A stretch of 64,000 bases of DNA, from contig NZ_LT907982.1 in the NCBI RefSeq assembly GCF_900230215.1, forward strand, positions 682,001 through 746,000, written 5' to 3'. Within the stretch, counting starts at the first letter, position 1, and each line of letters begins with the position of its first letter. A program made the translations under genes and the position numbers. The DNA is from Jatrophihabitans sp. GAS493. GTDB lineage: Bacteria; Actinomycetota; Actinomycetes; Mycobacteriales; Jatrophihabitantaceae. The notes under the pieces are model-generated. The model saw only the letters and a program-made list of their open reading frames with translations. It made no database searches and was not told the origin of the DNA. Of this stretch, positions 4,186 to 14,521 are shown piece by piece.

Positions 4186-4797
4186 CTAACGTCTGGCCGG
4201 TCGGGACCGGACGTGGAGGCGCTCGCCCTGCGGTCCGAAGAGGCTGAGGACCTCGGCTGGTTCCGGGCCTGGATTGCCAAAGAAATGCGGGATGTGTGTG
4301 TCGAACTCGGCGACTTCCCCCGGCGTCAGGATCATGTCGTGCTCGCCGAGGAGTAGGCGTAGACGTCCGGAGAGTATGTAGAGCCACTCGTATCCCTCGT
4401 GCACCTGCTGCTGCGGCTCGCCCGCGGGCCAGTTCTTTGCGATGACCATCTTGTAGGCCTGCAGGCCCCCCGGACGCCGGGTGAGCGGGATGATCGTCAT
4501 CCCGCGGCGCTTCAGCGGACGGGCATGCACCCGCGGGTCGCCGGTCGTCGGCGCGTCGACCAGCTCGTCCAGGGGGACCTGGTGGACGCGGGCCAGCAGG
4601 AGCAACAACTCCAAGGTGGGTCGCCGCTGCCCGGACTCCAGGCGGGAGAGCGTGCTCACCGAGATGCCCGTTGAGGTGGAGAGTTGCGCGAGCGTTGCCC
4701 CTCGACGCTGACGAAGCGCCCGCAGGCGAGGTCCGACCGCATCGAGAACATGGTCGAGGTTGGACTCAGCATTGGGCGTGGGCTCTGCGCCGGTCAT
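4186..4797 (-). CDS. XRE-family regulator with C-terminal cupin
   Basis: The chosen ATG at 4797 gives 203 aa and overlaps the stop of the upstream NRDE gene as ATGA. A longer frame to 4830 would run into that gene. Residues about 20-75 form a Cro/C1 helix-turn-helix (ALRQRRGATLAQLSTSTGISVSTLSRLESGQ is the recognisable region). Residues about 110-185 form a cupin (ILSGRLRLLLGEHDMILTPGEVAEFDTHIPHFF). Proteins of this type sense small molecules through the cupin and repress metabolic genes. The coupling to the upstream gene suggests joint expression; the target is not known. Confidence 0.88.
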   Translation of the reverse strand: MTGAEPTPNAESNLDHVLDAVGPRLRALRQRRGATLAQLSTSTGISVSTLSRLESGQRRPTLELLLLLARVHQVPLDELVDAPTTGDPRVHARPLKRRGMTIIPLTRRPGGLQAYKMVIAKNWPAGEPQQQVHEGYEWLYILSGRLRLLLGEHDMILTPGEVAEFDTHIPHFFGNPGPEPAEVLSLFGPQGERLHVRSRPARR

Positions 4798-5540
4798 GGA
4801 CTCGGCTCGGCCCACTGCCGGCTGCTCCACTCGGCGACCTCCCCTGAGGCGCTGTGGCCCAGTTGATAGGCATAGTCCACCCGCAGCAGCCCCGGACGGG
4901 CCGCAATGAACTGGCCATAGACCGTCTCATAGCTGTCCCCCTCGACCGGCATCCGGACGAGGAGCGCACCCGGCTCCGGCACCGGCTCGGCCGCCTCCAG
5001 CGGGGCCAGCCAGCCGGCCCAGAGTTGCTCAGTCGTTCCGGCCAGCGAAGGCGAGACTCCGGTCAACCGATCCATGAAACGTTCGTCACTGGGAGCAGCT
5101 TGGCCGTCGGGCTTGAACATGTGAGTCCCCGGGGCCAGCTCGTACCGTTGCAGCCGCGCGCCGTCGAAGCTCCACCAGGTGAGCGCGCCCGGCGTGGCCA
5201 GCACCAGATTGAAGGAGGCCATCGGCGCGATGTCAATGAAATCCGGCCAATCCTCCCGGTGCCGCAGTGCTAGCAGCGGCAGCACGCCCCGGCTCGCGGC
5301 GCCGGGCTCGGCCGTCCGCCGCTCCGGGCGATTGAGCACCACCGATGTCGCCCCGGCGCGCAGGTCGGAGGCGCACCAGGTGCCCCCGGCGCTGCGGTCA
5401 CGGCCACCGATCACCGACGGCTGCTCCGGCCACCAGGCGCCCGGTCCGTCGAATTCACGACTGGCCAGTTCGTCCCGCAGCGTGAGCATCAGGATCGGGA
5501 TAGCGGCCGACGGATCCCAGCGGCAGAAGACGGTGCACAC
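4794..5540 (-). CDS. NRDE/TANGO2-family protein
   Basis: The 248-aa product starts MCTVFCRW from a GTG at 5540. Cysteine at position 2 followed by T/L-V/I, the segment around residues 30-45 (GPGAWWPEQPSVIGGRD) and the downstream GTWCASD and VVLNRP are hallmarks of the NRDE family (eukaryotic relative TANGO2). The fold is Ntn-hydrolase-like and the exposed Cys2 is conserved. Biochemical function is unsettled. The gene overlaps the end of the upstream membrane-protein gene by 86 bases and is coupled to the XRE-cupin gene through ATGA. Confidence 0.75.
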   Translation of the reverse strand: MCTVFCRWDPSAAIPILMLTLRDELASREFDGPGAWWPEQPSVIGGRDRSAGGTWCASDLRAGATSVVLNRPERRTAEPGAASRGVLPLLALRHREDWPDFIDIAPMASFNLVLATPGALTWWSFDGARLQRYELAPGTHMFKPDGQAAPSDERFMDRLTGVSPSLAGTTEQLWAGWLAPLEAAEPVPEPGALLVRMPVEGDSYETVYGQFIAARPGLLRVDYAYQLGHSASGEVAEWSSRQWAEPSP

Positions 5541-6375
5541 GGGGCGAGCCTATGTCCATCCGTGCCGGCCGGCCCAATGAGCTCAGCGCTCGCACTACCA
5601 ACGCGGTGACTATGACGATGATTATGGCGATGACTATGACTATGACGATGACGGCCAGGGGGATCGCCACCCGGGCCGCACCGCCAGCCTCACCGCCCGT
5701 CGACCCATAGATCAGCGACCAGCCGAGCAGCCCGACCACCGCGGCCTGGACCAGTTCAACCGCCCGCAGCGACCATGGGGCGAGCGCGTCCAGGCGTCGA
5801 TGCAGCGTCATGAGATCGGCCGGGCGCCGTACCCGTGCGGTGAGCAGAACCGCGCAACCCCGCATCGCGCCGAAGGTGAGGCCGGCCAGCATCGCCCAGT
5901 ACGGTTCGGCGCTCAGGGCGGCCAGCGCGGCGAAGAGGTAGGTGCCGGCGGTCATGATGTACGTCGCGAAGCCGACCCCGATCTGGGCACCGAAGCCCAA
6001 CGCGTAGACCCAACGCCGGTAACGCATCAGCCACTCCTCGTCGACCTGACGGGGATGCATCGGTAACTGCCGGCCAACCACGCCCAGGTCGGAGCCGAGG
6101 CAGACGAGGGAGGCGACCACCCCGATTCCGACCCGGTTCGTGAAACCCAACGGTTGCAGTAGCAGAGCGATCGTAGCGGCGCCCGCCCCGAGGATGGCTC
6201 CGCCGGCGACGGCTCCCCCGACGAACCAGGCGCAGGTCAACCAGTAGCGATGGCCTCGGGCGCCTTCGGCGATCGGGTTGATGGCCGAGATCATCGACAG
6301 GCCGCAGGGTGACCAGGTGCCGCGCGCGCCGGCGGCGACGGCCATCACGAGGGCGGCCACCACAAGACTCGTCAC
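5455..6375 (-). CDS. CcdA/MauF-like membrane protein, last gene of the mau-like operon
   Basis: A 306-aa polytopic membrane protein with six to seven hydrophobic segments. Near the N-terminus it has GTWSPCGLSMI, resembling the SPC-x-LP motif of CcdA/DsbD and MauF, which pass electrons across the membrane to periplasmic thioredoxins. It starts with GTG at 6375, overlapping the stop of the MauA-like gene as GTGA. The last hydrophobic segment (about residues 242-262) is an almost pure Val/Ile run encoded by a tract of near-repeats (5606-5653). The last ~28 codons overlap the NRDE gene. The MauF-like role is inferred from the motif and from the MauD- and MauE-like neighbours. Confidence 0.6.
   Translation of the reverse strand: MTSLVVAALVMAVAAGARGTWSPCGLSMISAINPIAEGARGHRYWLTCAWFVGGAVAGGAILGAGAATIALLLQPLGFTNRVGIGVVASLVCLGSDLGVVGRQLPMHPRQVDEEWLMRYRRWVYALGFGAQIGVGFATYIMTAGTYLFAALAALSAEPYWAMLAGLTFGAMRGCAVLLTARVRRPADLMTLHRRLDALAPWSLRAVELVQAAVVGLLGWSLIYGSTGGEAGGAARVAIPLAVIVIVIVIAIIIVIVTALVVRALSSLGRPARMDIGSPRVHRLLPLGSVGRYPDPDAHAAGRTGQS
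5606..5653. repeat. Low-complexity ATGAC/TATGAC tract
   Basis: A tract of degenerate six-base near-repeats (TATGAC, GATGAC and variants). It is AT-richer than its surroundings and lies inside the CcdA/MauF-like gene, where it encodes the alternating Val/Ile membrane segment. The period keeps the reading frame. Confidence 0.8.
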
Positions 6376-8264
6376 GCCGTCACCCGTACCGTCCGCGAGC
6401 CGATCAACACATTGCGGCCCCTATCCACTGCGTAGGCCGCGACGGTGTGGTCGCCGGCAGTCGTGCTGACCTGCATGGCGAATCCGTAGTTGCCGTTGAC
6501 GGCATAGATCCGGTTGACGTCCGGCCGCAGGTGCCCGCTCGGGAAGACGCCGACCTGGCTGCCGTCCACGACGACGGCGATCGGCAGCTCCGTCCCGTAC
6601 TCGTCCGGGTTGAAGGCCCAGCCGTTGAGCGCCACCGACAGGCCCATCGGCGTCACCGCGTCAAGGCTGCCGAGCACGCCGGCCGGACCCACCCGAACCG
6701 TCCGCCGGCCGATCAGCGGATTTCCGATGCCGCCACCGACGTTGATCCCGTAGACGTAGATCGTGTGCAGTCCCGGTGCCAGCGTGATCCGGGTGTCGAA
6801 GCCATGCTGGCCGGTCAGGCCGAATGCCGCGTTGACGTCCGAGCGCGGGCGATCAGCCGGGAACCAACCGATCCCATGCGACTCGGTGTAGATGGCGACG
6901 TTGATGGAGTTGGCCGGCAGATTCGGGTCGAAGGCCCAACCATTGACCCGCACCGTGTCTGCGGCGACGACGCAACTATCCAGATTGCCGCGGGGTTGCG
7001 CGCCGAGATTCACCTCCAGTGATCGCTGCGCGATGAGGTTGTTGCCGCCGCCGGCGACGTTGATTCCGTAGACGGCGAAGGTGTGATGGCCGTCGGCGAC
7101 GTTGAGATGCACGTTGTACCCGTGTTTTCCGGTGATTCCGAAGGCCCGGTCCACATCGGGGCGATCGACGCCGGTGGGGAACCATCCCGCCAGCGCACCA
7201 TCGACGTACACCGCGACCTTGATCTCGGTGGAGGGAATGTCCGGGTCAAAGGCCCACCCGCCCAGGTGAACGTCGTTGCCGACGGCCGAAAGGACGTCCA
7301 GCTGCCCGACCGGCCACGCTTGGTTGACGTCGACACTTCGCCGGGCGATAAGGGGATTCCCCGATCCCGCCCCGACATTGATCGCGTACAGGTCGAAGGT
7401 GTGCCGACCGGTCGGGGCCTTCAGCGTGATGTTGAACCCGTGATTTCCATGCGCTGCGAAGGCCCGGTTCACGTCGGATCGGGGGGCGTTGGTGGGAAAC
7501 CAGGAGATGCCACGTCCGTCCTCATAAACCGCCACGTAGACCGACGTGCCGGGCTGGTCTCTATCCAGCGCCCACCCGGAGAGCTGCACCGTGTTGCCCG
7601 AGGTCGTGATCCGATCGAGCGATCCGATCGGGACCGACCCCGAGTTCGATACGCAGGGTGCCGACTGGGTGGCGGTGTTGTTGTCGGTTGCGCTCGCGGT
7701 GCTGCAGACGCCGCCGTACTGCTGCCAGGGTGGGGTGCAGGAGACCAGGCGGCAGAGCACCGGTCCGGTGGCGGAGGAAGGAATGTGGGTGCTGCACTGC
7801 CCGTAGCGGAACTGGTTGCAGGCGACGAGCCGCTGATCGCAGGTCGTCTTGTTGCAGTGACAGGGGTAGCGACCGTCTCGATAGGCGTTGCAGTCTACGT
7901 AATAGCGGGCTGAACCACCGCAGAATGACGAGTGGTCCGCCTTCCACCAGCCGCCGATGAAGGAGTCGGGTGGGCAGACGTTCTGACCGCCGTTGATCGT
8001 GCAGCAGAAGACGGTGTACCCGTCGCTGCAGCTGGTCGCGGTGCCGCAGACCGTCGCGTACGCGCTGGCCGGGCGCACCAGGTAGTTCAGCGGATCGGTG
8101 ACCACCGCCGCCCCCACGATCGCCGCGCCTCGTAGGAATCCGCGGCGATCCGGCCCCGCCCGCCGCCCGAGACGCGCAGCGACCCGCTCCACGATTCGCT
8201 CGACCCTCCGCTCGAACGTCCGCCCAGACGTCTGCTCCGTCGACTCACCAACGCCGCTGATCAC
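6372..8264 (-). CDS. Tat-exported MauA-like cysteine-rich protein with four C-terminal repeats
   Basis: This 630-aa protein has a twin-arginine signal (DRRGFLRGA, arginines 40-41, then a hydrophobic stretch). Residues 73-187 resemble the methylamine dehydrogenase light chain: C73-x5-C79, a C-C pair at 87-88, CPPD at 97-100, W106-W107, and closely spaced cysteines at 135 and 137. Most light-chain disulfide cysteines can be aligned by eye. The second tryptophan of the TTQ cofactor (W108 in the Paracoccus enzyme, followed by Cys) is replaced by Ala148. Residues about 212-630 are four repeats of 95-105 aa, each with LxGWAFDPD, WFP, DVNRAF and a closing YxINVGxG-NPLI-RR pattern. The start is GTG at 8264, overlapping the previous stop. 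No large-chain gene is near. Confidence 0.75.
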   Translation of the reverse strand: MISGVGESTEQTSGRTFERRVERIVERVAARLGRRAGPDRRGFLRGAAIVGAAVVTDPLNYLVRPASAYATVCGTATSCSDGYTVFCCTINGGQNVCPPDSFIGGWWKADHSSFCGGSARYYVDCNAYRDGRYPCHCNKTTCDQRLVACNQFRYGQCSTHIPSSATGPVLCRLVSCTPPWQQYGGVCSTASATDNNTATQSAPCVSNSGSVPIGSLDRITTSGNTVQLSGWALDRDQPGTSVYVAVYEDGRGISWFPTNAPRSDVNRAFAAHGNHGFNITLKAPTGRHTFDLYAINVGAGSGNPLIARRSVDVNQAWPVGQLDVLSAVGNDVHLGGWAFDPDIPSTEIKVAVYVDGALAGWFPTGVDRPDVDRAFGITGKHGYNVHLNVADGHHTFAVYGINVAGGGNNLIAQRSLEVNLGAQPRGNLDSCVVAADTVRVNGWAFDPNLPANSINVAIYTESHGIGWFPADRPRSDVNAAFGLTGQHGFDTRITLAPGLHTIYVYGINVGGGIGNPLIGRRTVRVGPAGVLGSLDAVTPMGLSVALNGWAFNPDEYGTELPIAVVVDGSQVGVFPSGHLRPDVNRIYAVNGNYGFAMQVSTTAGDHTVAAYAVDRGRNVLIGSRTVRVTA

Positions 8265-8779
8265 CGGGCGGCCACCTCGACGCCGGCCAGAATCGTGTTC
8301 ACTTCACGGCACAGCGGACCGACCCGCCCCCGGTCACCGAGCACGATGAACAGGCACATCGGGTGACCGCGGTGGGTGAAGAATCGCTGGTAGCCGGCCT
8401 GGCCAGCCACCCGCCGCTGCAGTGCGGCCGGGTCGAAGTCGGCCGGCGTGGGGCGCGGTAGGCCCGGTGCCGCGTAGAGCGCGGTCCCCAGCTCGTCCGG
8501 TCCGAACTGCAGTAGCGAGACGAAGATGTCGGACGATCCCATCCGCTCCACGGCACCGGTGCCGTAGTCACCCCGCCCGGCCGGCAGCGGGAAGTTACCC
8601 AGATGCAGGATCGGCCGGGTCACCTCTCCGGCCCATCCCAGGTCACCACCGGCCGAGGCGCGACTGACCGGCGAGGCGAAGGAGCTGACCGGTAGCGGGC
8701 GCTGATAGATCCGGCCTTCCCACGGCTTCGGCAGCGTCACGGCGAGTCCCAGACCGGAGAGACGGGCGGGCGCACTCAT
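8261..8779 (-). CDS. Protein of unknown function in the mau-like operon
   Basis: A 172-aa protein that I do not recognise. It has no clear signal peptide or membrane segment and contains two cysteines, at about 142 and 157. The middle has SSDIFVSLLQFGPDELGTALYAAPGLP. The ATG at 8779 overlaps the stop of the MauD-like gene and its own stop overlaps the start of the MauA-like gene, so it is made from the same message. Its fixed place between the thioredoxin-like and MauA-like genes suggests a cytosolic partner or chaperone for the exported protein; that is inference only. Confidence 0.6.
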   Translation of the reverse strand: MSAPARLSGLGLAVTLPKPWEGRIYQRPLPVSSFASPVSRASAGGDLGWAGEVTRPILHLGNFPLPAGRGDYGTGAVERMGSSDIFVSLLQFGPDELGTALYAAPGLPRPTPADFDPAALQRRVAGQAGYQRFFTHRGHPMCLFIVLGDRGRVGPLCREVNTILAGVEVAAR

Positions 8780-9528
8780 ACCGGCGGGTACAGCGATGGA
8801 TGGCCCGGCGCGATGCCCGCCTCCAGCAGCACGCGGTCGACGTCGCCCTCCCGTTCGGTGTCCCGGCGTGGCTTGCGAATGCCGTCGAGCGGCGGTTGCA
8901 GCTCACGCCGGTCGCCCTCGGATTGCGCGATCAAGGCCGTCACCTGGCTGAACGAGGTGCCCGACCCGGCGCCCTTGGTCCGGCCGGTCGGTCCGTCGAC
9001 GACGACCACGTACGGCGATCCGGGGACGTCGTAATCCTGCCAGGCGGCGGTGGAGAGCAGCAGGTCGACGCCGGCCGGAGCGAGCTCGCGCAGGCTCGCG
9101 GGGCTTTCGTCCACTCCGTCCTTGGCGACGATCACCAGCCGGCTGCCCGCGGGGAGGGCCCAGCTTCCCGGGCGGCCCAGCTCCTCCCAGAACCCGGCGC
9201 AGCCGGCGCAGCCGGAGGAGAGGAAGGCGATCACCGTGTCGTGCTCCACCTCTACCGTGCGCAGGTGCACGACCTCGCCGTCCAGGGTCGAGCCGTCGAT
9301 GTCGTGCCCCGGCGACCATTCGTCGCGTCGCTGCACCTGATGCGTAGTCGCCGACCGTGGGGTCTCCGGGTGCTGGACCCCGGGTGCGGTCTTGAACGGC
9401 GGCGGCTCGTCGCCTCCGTCCAACTCGTGCAGTCGCCGCAGCACACCGGCGTAGCCGCTGAGCAGTCCGGCGACCAGCACGCAGAGCACCAGCAGCAGCG
9501 CCGTCTCCACCGCGATCAACACGATCAT
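8776..9528 (-). CDS. MauD-like membrane-anchored thioredoxin-fold protein
   Basis: The ATG at 9528, which overlaps the MauE-like stop as ATGA, gives 250 aa; a longer open frame upstream is spurious. Residues 1-24 form a single membrane anchor. A thioredoxin-like domain follows, with the active-site motif CAGC in FLSSGCAGCAGFW (about residues 105-115) and a cis-proline-like region PGSPYVVVVDG further on. MauD proteins are needed for correct disulfide formation in the methylamine dehydrogenase light chain. Here the candidate substrate is the Cys-rich MauA-like protein two genes downstream. Confidence 0.82.
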   Translation of the reverse strand: MIVLIAVETALLLVLCVLVAGLLSGYAGVLRRLHELDGGDEPPPFKTAPGVQHPETPRSATTHQVQRRDEWSPGHDIDGSTLDGEVVHLRTVEVEHDTVIAFLSSGCAGCAGFWEELGRPGSWALPAGSRLVIVAKDGVDESPASLRELAPAGVDLLLSTAAWQDYDVPGSPYVVVVDGPTGRTKGAGSGTSFSQVTALIAQSEGDRRELQPPLDGIRKPRRDTEREGDVDRVLLEAGIAPGHPSLYPPV

Positions 9529-10088
9529 GTCGTCTCCACCTTTCGGCCGGCCGGACCGGCTAGACCGGCTGGACCGGCTAGCCGTAACAGGGTCGGCAGC
9601 TGGGTCATCAGCAGATAGCTGCTCCAGGCCAGCAGCAGCACCGCGACGAGCAGGGGAATGCCGAGCAGCGGCTGGCCGGCGAATTCCGCGCGCAGCGACG
9701 GCGTCGGGTGCAGCGCGCCGATCGCCGCACTCACCCCGAAGAGCAGGTTGACCGCGACATGCCAGCCGCTGACGGGGCTCGCACCGGCGCCGAAGCAGCC
9801 ACACTCCTGCTCGGGGGCAACCACCCGCATTCGCCAGGCGAAGGCGGCCAGCGTGGCGTAGCTGAGCGCCAGCAGCAACGCCGGGCCTCGGCCACCGACC
9901 AGCAGCACGACGAGCCCGATCACCACCTCGCCGACCCCGGTCAGCCGCGCGGCTGGCTTCGCCGCCCACCCCGATCCACCCGGGATCCGCGCGGCGGCCA
10001 GCGCCGCACCACCGGCCGCTGGATGGCGAATCTTGTACAGGCCGGCGGCGAGCAGCAGCAGTGCTCCGGCGGCCAGAATCCCCGTCAC
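9525..10088 (-). CDS. MauE/DoxX-family redox-associated membrane protein
   Basis: A 187-aa protein with four hydrophobic segments, starting at GTG 10088. The motif EQECGCFG (residues about 96-103) is the typical Cys pair of the MauE/DoxX redox family, and AGLYKIRHP near the N-terminus is also characteristic. MauE acts with MauD in oxidative maturation of the MauA light chain. This is the first gene of the five-gene minus-strand operon. The C-terminus ends in small repeats (LAGPAGLAGPAG). Confidence 0.82.
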   Translation of the reverse strand: MTGILAAGALLLLAAGLYKIRHPAAGGAALAAARIPGGSGWAAKPAARLTGVGEVVIGLVVLLVGGRGPALLLALSYATLAAFAWRMRVVAPEQECGCFGAGASPVSGWHVAVNLLFGVSAAIGALHPTPSLRAEFAGQPLLGIPLLVAVLLLAWSSYLLMTQLPTLLRLAGPAGLAGPAGRKVETT

Positions 10089-12440: not shown

Positions 12441-13883
12441 TTAGGTCTTGGCCGAGATCTGAACCGCGCAGTCGTCCTTGTTGAGATAGACCGTGGAGCG
12501 GCCGAGCGGGTCAAGGGTCACCGACTTCGTGCCGGCGGGTGCCTTGGCCACGCTGATCTCCTGCCCATCCACCGGGTTGTAGAGGCGGAAGGTGCACTCC
12601 GAGCTGTCCTGGAAGTCCTTGATCTCCACCAGCACCGTCGCCGGCGCGGCGAAGCTGTCGGTATCCAGGTCGTCCGTCTGCGTGAATGGAAGGACAGCCG
12701 ACCCGGCACCGGCCAGCGCAGCGACGACACAGCCGCGGTCAGTGGTCTCCCAGGTGAAGGGACCCGTCTCGCTGACCTGCTTGGTGATCCGCTGGTAGGT
12801 AATCGGCAGCGACACCACTTCGTGAGTCGTCGAGTTGGTCAGCCTCAGCGTGCAGCCGACATCGTTCGCTTGAATGTCGTCAGTGACTCGCAGCCGCCAC
12901 GGCGCGGTGGCGGTGTAGCTACCGCTGCCCGGGTTCAGCGAGGGGAGCGGTGTCTGGCCGCCGTTCGATCCCGAGCCGCCTGAACCTGAGCCGCCGTTGG
13001 TCAGCGCAATCACTACGCCGATCACTGCGGCGAAGACCACCGCGCCGGCTCCGATCAGCAGCGGACGGTTGGGGCGGCGGCGCGTCTGAATGGTTTCGGG
13101 TCGAGCGTCCGGTCGCTCAGCCGGTGGCGTTTGAGCCGGAGAAGACGGGGGATTGACTCGCTCTCGCTCCGAACGGCGCGCCAGCCGAACATCACCGTCG
13201 CCGTCGACCCGGCGCTGCGGGATCTGCTTCCCCTCGCGGCGGAGTTGCTCGTCGACGTAGGTGTACAGGTCGGTGAAGGTGATGAAGCCGTCGTCGTTCT
13301 GGTCGAGATCGGCATCCAGGAGTCCGTCGATGAGGTGCTGGGTGAAGGCGCTCGTGCCGTTGTCGATCGTCGCGTCATTCGCCAGCTGAGTGCCCCGGCA
13401 ACTGGAGAGGACGTAACGCCCGGGTCCGGCCACCGATTCGCCGAGGTCCCCGCCGCGGAATGCCCCGGCGTAGCAACAGTCAAGAATTATCACGGTGTTC
13501 TGAGCCCGCGACGCTTCGGCGAACTCGTTGATACGGGCGCTGCTCACCGCCGTCGAGAGCAACTGACCGGATTCGGTGTCCTGCACGCACAGGTGTAGAC
13601 GTCCGCTCTGGTCGAGCTTGCCGTGGCCGCTGAAGTAGAGCAGCAGCACGTCGTCGCGGGAGGCGCTGTCGAAGAAGGTGCCCAGGGCGCGGATCACTCG
13701 GGCCGAGGTGGCTTCGGGTAACAGGGTCACGTCCACATCGGCGAAGAGCCCGGTTGTGCGGTCGACCAGGGCGCGATTGAGCGCGGCGATGTCCTTCACC
13801 GGCCCTTTCAGCGTCTGCAGATTGTGCTCGTCGGCCGGGTAGGTCGAGTTGCCGATCAGGAGTGCGCGGTACCGTCCGGCCAT
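12441..13883 (-). CDS. Caspase-like (peptidase C14) protein with EF-hand and membrane anchor, EACC1-associated type
   Basis: The ATG at 13883 (MAGRYRALLIGN) gives 480 aa; the longer frame to 14033 is out of family. The caspase fold spans about 1-240, with catalytic His87 in YFSGHGK and Cys137 in LDCCYAG. Within it, residues 194-205 (DQNDDGFITFTD) match a 12-residue EF-hand calcium loop at every ligand position. A Pro/Arg-rich linker is followed by a membrane segment at about 275-296 and an extracellular beta-rich domain (about 310-480). The start overlaps the upstream EACC1-like gene by 28 bases. Caspases with EACC1-like partners are known as effectors in predicted bacterial conflict systems; the target is unknown. 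Confidence 0.85.
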   Translation of the reverse strand: MAGRYRALLIGNSTYPADEHNLQTLKGPVKDIAALNRALVDRTTGLFADVDVTLLPEATSARVIRALGTFFDSASRDDVLLLYFSGHGKLDQSGRLHLCVQDTESGQLLSTAVSSARINEFAEASRAQNTVIILDCCYAGAFRGGDLGESVAGPGRYVLSSCRGTQLANDATIDNGTSAFTQHLIDGLLDADLDQNDDGFITFTDLYTYVDEQLRREGKQIPQRRVDGDGDVRLARRSERERVNPPSSPAQTPPAERPDARPETIQTRRRPNRPLLIGAGAVVFAAVIGVVIALTNGGSGSGGSGSNGGQTPLPSLNPGSGSYTATAPWRLRVTDDIQANDVGCTLRLTNSTTHEVVSLPITYQRITKQVSETGPFTWETTDRGCVVAALAGAGSAVLPFTQTDDLDTDSFAAPATVLVEIKDFQDSSECTFRLYNPVDGQEISVAKAPAGTKSVTLDPLGRSTVYLNKDDCAVQISAKT

Positions 13884-14275
13884 CCCGATCCCCCCACCCG
13901 ATGGGCGGCCGCGGCGGCGATCGCCCGAACGGAGTCGATGTCGATCGCCTCGCCGGTGAGGCTGACGAAATGGTCCACGCCATCGTCGTCCCAGCGGACC
14001 TCGATGCGGCGGCCGCGGTCGCGACTGAGCCAAGCCCGGAACGATTCGACCGCGGCGGTGAAGGCACCGGCACTGCCGAGGGCGACGATGAGTTCGTCGA
14101 CGCCGCCCTTCGAGCCGGTGAACGGACGTGACTGCACGCGCGTGTCGACGATCCCGTGCAGTTCGGATTGATAGGCGTTCACCTGGCTGCGCCAGCGGTC
14201 GTCATCGGGGTAGTAGTCGCTGCTGCGCAGCTCGACGGACAGCTCGAAGGTCGTATTCGAATCGTCTGTGGACAT
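13856..14275 (-). CDS. EACC1-like effector-associated protein
   Basis: The ATG at 14275 (MSTDDSN), with a GGGG-rich ribosome-binding site just upstream, gives 139 aa. The pattern of a charged first strand, G-x-KGGVDELIVALGSAGAFTA, an amphipathic helix with SFRAWLSR, and a final beta pair (IEVRWDDDGVDHFVSL) looks like the effector-associated constant component 1 (EACC1) family. Members sit beside caspase- or trypsin-like effectors in predicted NTP-dependent conflict systems. Its 28-base overlap with the caspase gene supports a two-protein unit. Assignment is by eye. Confidence 0.7.
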   Translation of the reverse strand: MSTDDSNTTFELSVELRSSDYYPDDDRWRSQVNAYQSELHGIVDTRVQSRPFTGSKGGVDELIVALGSAGAFTAAVESFRAWLSRDRGRRIEVRWDDDGVDHFVSLTGEAIDIDSVRAIAAAAAHRVGGSGWPDGTAHS

Positions 14276-14521
14276 CCCACACCCCTTGCTAGGTGGGCCG
14301 ATTTTACCAACGCATCGGCACGCAAAGCGAGGAGTCCGAGCGACCCTGCGCTGATACACGGCTCATTGCACGCTGGAACTGCTCGCGCCATAACGGCGCC
14401 GCCTGTTCGCGTGGAGGGTTGGGCGGCGACGACAGAGAGTAGATACTTGTTCACACTGACGGACCGGTGAGCACTCACTGCACGCTCAGCCGAGCGAAGG
14501 TCTAGGGAGAGGTGAGCGCCC
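14276..14521. promoter_or_regulatory. Divergent promoter region of the caspase/AAA+ island
   Basis: A 246-base non-coding stretch separates the leftward EACC1-caspase pair from the rightward 644-aa/AAA+ pair. It should hold both promoters. I do not see a convincing -35/-10 pair or palindrome. A short AGGGAGAGGTG purine run at 14502-14512 serves as the ribosome-binding site for the gene at 14522. Confidence 0.5.

Follow-up and report, generated by a model that had tools for sequence, protein, structure and literature searches.

Among the closest described counterparts of the genes analysed here is the mau cluster of Paracoccus denitrificans (mauFBEDACJG). MauE and MauD are needed for the maturation of methylamine dehydrogenase (MADH), and the TTQ of the MADH light chain is formed from Trp57 and Trp108. 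In aromatic amine dehydrogenase (AADH)-type clusters, genes are arranged in the order large subunit–MauE–MauD–light chain. Some of these components are re-used elsewhere: in decRiPPter clusters of Streptomyces, MauE and, in one family, MauD stand beside Cys-rich products without MADH, and there is speculation that MauE forms disulfides in the small subunit of MADH (PMC7794033).

The locus described here lies within a 64,000-nucleotide stretch of DNA from Jatrophihabitans sp. GAS493 (contig NZ_LT907982.1, positions 682,001 to 746,000), called the window below. An earlier note on this DNA had described five overlapping genes at 5455-10088, with ATGA or GTGA junctions, as a mau-like operon without MauB or MauG. 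The coordinates and overlaps were reproduced, with ATGA at the mauE/mauD and mauD/gene 3 junctions and GTGA at the gene 3/gene 4 and gene 4/gene 5 junctions. The features, in window positions, are as follows:

10088→5455, minus strand: the cassette of five genes, with four head-to-tail overlaps
9525..10088, minus strand: gene 1, MauE-like membrane protein, 187 aa (PF07291; hhalign to MauE)
8776..9528, minus strand: gene 2, MauD-like membrane-anchored thioredoxin-fold protein, 250 aa, ATG at 9528 (hhalign to MauD)
8261..8779, minus strand: gene 3, 172 aa, undescribed family (AF2 model; co-occurrence with the head of gene 4)
6372..8264, minus strand: gene 4, Tat-exported Cys-rich protein, 630 aa (TIGR01409 TAT signal)
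8055..8264, minus strand: Tat leader of gene 4, residues ~1-70, RRGFL at 40-44 (TIGR01409 at residues 39-68)
7650..8078, minus strand: Cys-rich head of gene 4, residues 63-205, 16 Cys (A3 profile)
6372..7634, minus strand: tail of gene 4, residues ~211-630, four ~95-aa repeats with a GWAxDPD-type motif (no Pfam family)
5455..6375, minus strand: gene 5, MauF/CcdA-like multi-TM protein (hhalign to MauF; TM segments)

For genes 1, 2, 4 and 5, families were built from relatives and compared by hhalign with the annotated mau genes of seven plasmids; reversed and mismatched pairs, run as controls, scored at most 0.2%. Gene 1 matched PF07291 (MauE; E 3.3e-13, 50.5 bits against a cut-off of 27), its family scored 97.4% against MauE, and it retains a CGCFG motif. 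Genes 2 and 5 had no Pfam match as single sequences, and their families matched MauD (98.4%, E 9e-15) and MauF (98.4%, E 1e-14), respectively. Gene 2 has kept its CAGC (CxxC) motif and has a hydrophobic helix at the N-terminus. A TWSPCG motif, of the WSPCG type, is present in gene 5, the final ~40 codons of which fall outside the conserved domain; at 5600-5665, hexamer-like repeats (GACTAT/GATGAC type, plus strand) encode its last Ile/Val-rich helix, IVIVIVIAIIIVIV.

Profile searches of the complete 4.88-Mb genome found neither MauB (PF06433) nor MauG (PF03150), both of which were matched in the P. denitrificans mau plasmid used as a positive control, and the description of a mau-like operon without these two proteins thus stands for the genome as well as for the window. 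The strict co-occurrence of a mauB homologue with the operon, which the earlier note had named as a refutation, was not observed: PF06433 was above cut-off in none of 396 Actinomycetota genomes, all 32 carriers of the cassette included. PF02975 was above cut-off in one of the 396, a non-carrier; the assembly with this sole match (L127, genome G554) has 6% contamination. Of MauB and MauG, the large subunit alone is a strict hallmark, because the AADH-type clusters shown also lack an adjacent MauG.

The cassette has MauF-, MauE- and MauD-type proteins and a gene for a Tat-leader, Cys-rich substrate in common with the P. denitrificans cluster; it differs in lacking MauB, MauG, MauJ and amicyanin, and in adding gene 3, which is unrelated to MauJ. 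Compared with P. denitrificans MauA, the substrate and its relatives have 16–26 Cys instead of 12, and it carries a long repeat tail and, by alignment, lacks the second TTQ Trp. The adjoining MauE–MauD–light chain order is common to AADH-type clusters, but those shown carry a large-subunit gene, which the cassette does not. In the decRiPPter clusters, the precursors are treated as RiPP peptides, and MauF, gene 3 and a tailed surface protein are not described in the passages that deal with them (PMC7794033).

From the results that follow, we think it probable that these genes form a cassette dedicated to the Tat export and oxidative folding of a single cell-surface protein, and that the gene 4 product is not an amine dehydrogenase subunit. 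This agrees with the earlier note in that the cassette looks built for the export and disulfide folding of a Cys-rich protein; its MauA label and its phrase ‘one Cys-rich protein’ both need the qualifications given below.

Distribution and linkage of the five families

The head of gene 4 and gene 3 were found in exactly the same 32 of the 396 Actinomycetota genomes, with a marginal, partial head match in a 33rd (G209); the hypergeometric p for this co-occurrence is ~2e-46, relatedness being ignored. Within the class, relatives of gene 4 were present in 8 other genomes among 297. A species collection gave 96 loci with such relatives, of which 80 were kept, nearly all from Actinomycetota; occurrences in one ‘Melainabacteria’ and one ‘Acidobacteriota’ MAG are probably the result of mis-binning.

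All five families were found together in 58 loci, which show at least nine gene orders and include some genomes twice because two collections cover them. A further 20 loci fetched later, one truncated at the end of its contig, contained the same five-gene set. The survey of actinobacterial MauA-like genes that the earlier note had proposed thus found them with the same partners. Recurrence of these families as a group in dozens of genomes puts the five-gene arrangement far beyond chance. Four genomes that have no MauF-like gene adjacent to the cassette were tested, and each has one copy elsewhere; at two loci (L058 and L059), for which the locus itself was searched, no MauE was seen next to the cassette. 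The five proteins have correlated distance matrices (r 0.68-0.85), against a permutation maximum of 0.23.

Clustering of neighbouring genes revealed none beyond the five that was conserved past clade synteny, except for a PD40/SLH gene in some loci. This gene, encoding a secreted protein with a PD40 beta-propeller and/or an SLH domain, directly follows gene 3 in L036, L053, L060, L073, L080, L108, L109, L113 and L116; these loci belong to deep-branching actinobacteria, some with untailed heads, and the gene may provide a separate anchor or partner.

Two neighbours in the window were considered as cassette members and excluded, as neither occurs in any related locus: a TANGO2-family gene (4794-5540), which shares 86 bases with the 3′ end of gene 5, and an upstream divergent secreted gene. 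Further along, the minus strand encodes a caspase-like protein (12441-14033; DCCYAGAF motif seen by eye only), and a small gene (13856-14359, minus strand) overlaps it as its upstream neighbour, giving the look of an effector-type pair. No relatives of the cassette were found in viral contigs or plasmids, and classification as a defence system was rejected, there being no PADLOC match. A search of the open literature, as distinct from subscription journals, did not find the five-gene set described. Together, these results identify the cassette as genuine and phylum-wide, and as a form of the mau maturation kit that has apparently not been described before.

The gene 4 protein and its relation to MauA

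The TAT signal of gene 4 scored 21.7 bits (TIGR01409, cut-off 16.7), and the RR of the leader is conserved in 84–85 of 86 relatives. The head, as defined by the A3 profile, starts within the last 8 residues of this leader. It matches no Pfam or NCBIfam family and, at a mean identity of 55%, is better conserved than the other four proteins, with an invariant GWWK motif (W106-W107); residue Ala148 is Cys in most relatives. One additional, unpaired Cys (in LDSC) is found in the tail and brings the total from the 16 of the head to 17. The MAG that has the complete cassette L029 also contains, at L045:5778-8885, a second head gene, an orphan whose tail is of the ricin-B lectin type.

Tails, by contrast with heads, vary among relatives. 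LGFP repeats were found in 61 of 93, CWB2 in 4, FG-GAP in 3, and ricin-B lectin (RicinB), B-lectin (B_lectin) and DUF4214 in one each; other relatives have unassigned repeats as a tail, and some heads are untailed. The repeat type of the window protein is also present in relatives L020-L022 and has no characterised relative. As the LGFP repeats of MytA interact with peptidoglycan–arabinogalactan (PMC11299179), display on the wall or surface is likely, by analogy, for the LGFP-tailed relatives. Because relatives carry LGFP, CWB2, lectin or FG-GAP repeats as tails, the gene 4 product of Jatrophihabitans is probably also a surface protein, even though its own tail type is uncharacterised.

We considered whether the product could instead belong to a RiPP-like peptide natural product pathway, as Streptomyces offers a precedent in clusters where, as the source presents them, MauE and MauD lie beside Cys-rich precursors without other mau genes (PMC7794033). 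At 630 aa, with a Tat leader and a long tail of repeats, the product is no short precursor, and neither a RiPP enzyme nor a transporter is conserved next to the cassette, which makes this the least probable of the explanations that we weighed.

The number of cysteines in the head points to disulfides. In raw counts, 88 of 92 sequences had an even number; the four odd counts were artefacts of cutting out the head, the missing Cys lying just outside the boundary, and after correction the number was even in all 92. Cysteine columns also vary in pairs (phi 0.96-1.0), namely residues 79-137, 88-204 and 135-149 of the full-length window protein, and a further pair, 133/148, is confined to relatives and absent from the window protein. 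Even counts and paired gain or loss are what structural disulfides predict, and the head of the window protein is taken here to be compact, with eight predicted disulfides.

These cysteines also bear on whether the chain of genes 1, 2 and 5 works in the opposite sense. As the usual task of CcdA-like proteins is to bring reducing power to the outside, the chain could work reductively instead of oxidatively: MauF/CcdA, MauE and MauD would then send electrons outward, and the head would be an extracellular thiol-redox protein with cycled disulfides, not a disulfide-stabilised scaffold. That gene 5 is of the CcdA/MauF kind and that gene 2 retains its CxxC are in keeping with such cycling, and the conservation of the head is what would be expected of an active protein. 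Set against this are the always-even, pairwise-varying cysteines, as expected of structural disulfides, and a CxxC-like motif in the head that varies between clades, and we regard outward redox cycling as unlikely. Oxidative folding of an exported head is the reading that we continue to prefer.

The earlier note had called gene 4 MauA-like. That label applies at most to the first ~205 residues, the remainder being the four-repeat tail that relatives swap for other repeats, and even there the kinship is distant. PF02975 had no match in the genome or among the 70 sequences of a head alignment, a direct PDB sequence search with the head returned nothing, and a first hhalign comparison of the head with a single MauA gave a match of 12 columns only. 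With the Tat leader included, the gene 4 family scored 92.9% against MauA; with the leader removed, the mature family scored 1.5% (E 0.03, 36 columns). Because the higher score is driven by the Tat leader, we do not claim sequence-proven homology for the mature head, and its MauA-like identity is weakly supported.

The AlphaFold2 model of the head (pLDDT 83.6) was compared with the PDB, and all 22 entries listed with Z>=2 were TTQ light chains, at a Z of only 2.0-2.5 and with a Foldseek E of ~1. Given the three Mau-type neighbours, a distant common origin of the head and MauA is likely. In three MAFFT alignments, which are weak, the invariant Trp of the head GWWK aligned with MADH Trp57, and the position of Trp108 was occupied by Pro, Ala, Ser or Gly, never by Trp. 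If these alignments are right, TTQ as it is known could not form in the head.

The same observations bear on how far an amine dehydrogenase, TTQ-like or otherwise, should be entertained, with a beta-propeller unrelated to MauB as its large subunit. Such an enzyme would account for the exclusive appearance of TTQ light chains among the listed folds with Z>=2, for the Trp that aligns with Trp57, and for the PD40 beta-propeller or SLH gene that follows gene 3 in some loci. It fits poorly with the replacement of Trp108 in every alignment, with the absence of MauG and of any above-cut-off PF06433 match in the 396 genomes, with the lack of a propeller gene adjoining the window operon, and with neighbour clusters in which no amicyanin or cytochrome gene recurs. 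We therefore hold it to be improbable.

Gene 3 and the proposed export route

Gene 3, which the earlier note had left as unknown, matched no Pfam or NCBIfam family and is indeed an undescribed family; it is not a bystander, being a strict partner of the head with a predicted PsbP/Mog1-like fold. Identity with MauJ was rejected, as comparison showed no relation. The protein has neither a signal peptide nor a TM helix, and a hydrophobic N-terminal stretch was seen in only 1 of 85 orthologues. Its AF2 model (pLDDT 92) resembled PsbP/Mog1/LpqN-like folds with VIA-align Z of about 5-6.8 and Foldseek E of at least 0.02. Proteins of this fold include CyanoP, LpqN, Tsi3 and EagT6, and EagT6-type proteins were among the likenesses; gene 3 differs from them in having no sequence family match and in being confined, among the 396 genomes, to carriers of the cassette. 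From the predicted fold and the co-occurrence with the head, we propose that gene 3 is a cytoplasmic export chaperone.

Occurrence of the same fold in immunity proteins was counted against a chaperone role. Tsi3 and TplEi, both immunity proteins, were the top structural neighbours of gene 3 (Z 6.5-6.8), level with relatives of PsbP, LpqN and Mog1, and might suggest an antagonism system with the head as a disulfide-stabilised toxin and gene 3 as the matching immunity protein. A head that is highly conserved across the phylum on a varying tail is the reverse of polymorphic toxins, and gene 3 has no signal peptide and the locus no PADLOC match; we consider antagonism very improbable.

For the export and folding cassette that we favour, the following route is proposed. 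Gene 4 would give rise to a reduced precursor consisting of Tat leader, compact head and C-terminal repeat tail, which the soluble gene 3 protein may hold or pilot in the cytoplasm until the Tat system exports it. On the outer side of the membrane, the CxxC of the MauD-like thioredoxin would make or reshuffle the disulfides of the head, with electrons moved, in a direction that we infer, by the MauE-like and MauF/CcdA-like membrane proteins. The interchangeable tail would then display the finished head on the wall or surface. The first and last of these steps are based on signals and tail families and the middle ones on homology; the redox roles of the MauD-, MauE- and MauF-like proteins are assigned because of this homology and of the known need for MauE and MauD in MADH maturation.

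A more specific proposal joins two claims: that the head is a new kind of extracellular working protein, which uses the scaffold of the MADH light chain but no TTQ and may carry some other modification at its invariant Trp pair, and that the cassette is a separate actinobacterial branch of mau in which a cytoplasmic chaperone and an extracellular disulfide relay are both devoted to one Tat substrate. Taken jointly, we offer these as a speculative idea with rather low odds of being right.

Whichever function the head performs, parts of the machinery for MADH assembly have persisted across a phylum almost wholly without MADH (PF06433 above cut-off in 0 and PF02975 in 1 of the 396 genomes), and they serve a substrate and a partner for which neither Pfam nor NCBIfam has a matching family. 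One substrate with four helpers provides a simple system for the roles of MauE, MauD and MauF, which in MADH are tangled with TTQ formation. The Tat pathway generally prefers cargo that is already folded, and conditions in the cytoplasm are reducing; the cassette is relevant to the folding of a Tat substrate that has eight or more disulfides. The combination of a constant head with exchangeable, wall-binding tails would point to a surface function, apparently unstudied so far, in many actinobacteria of soil and water.
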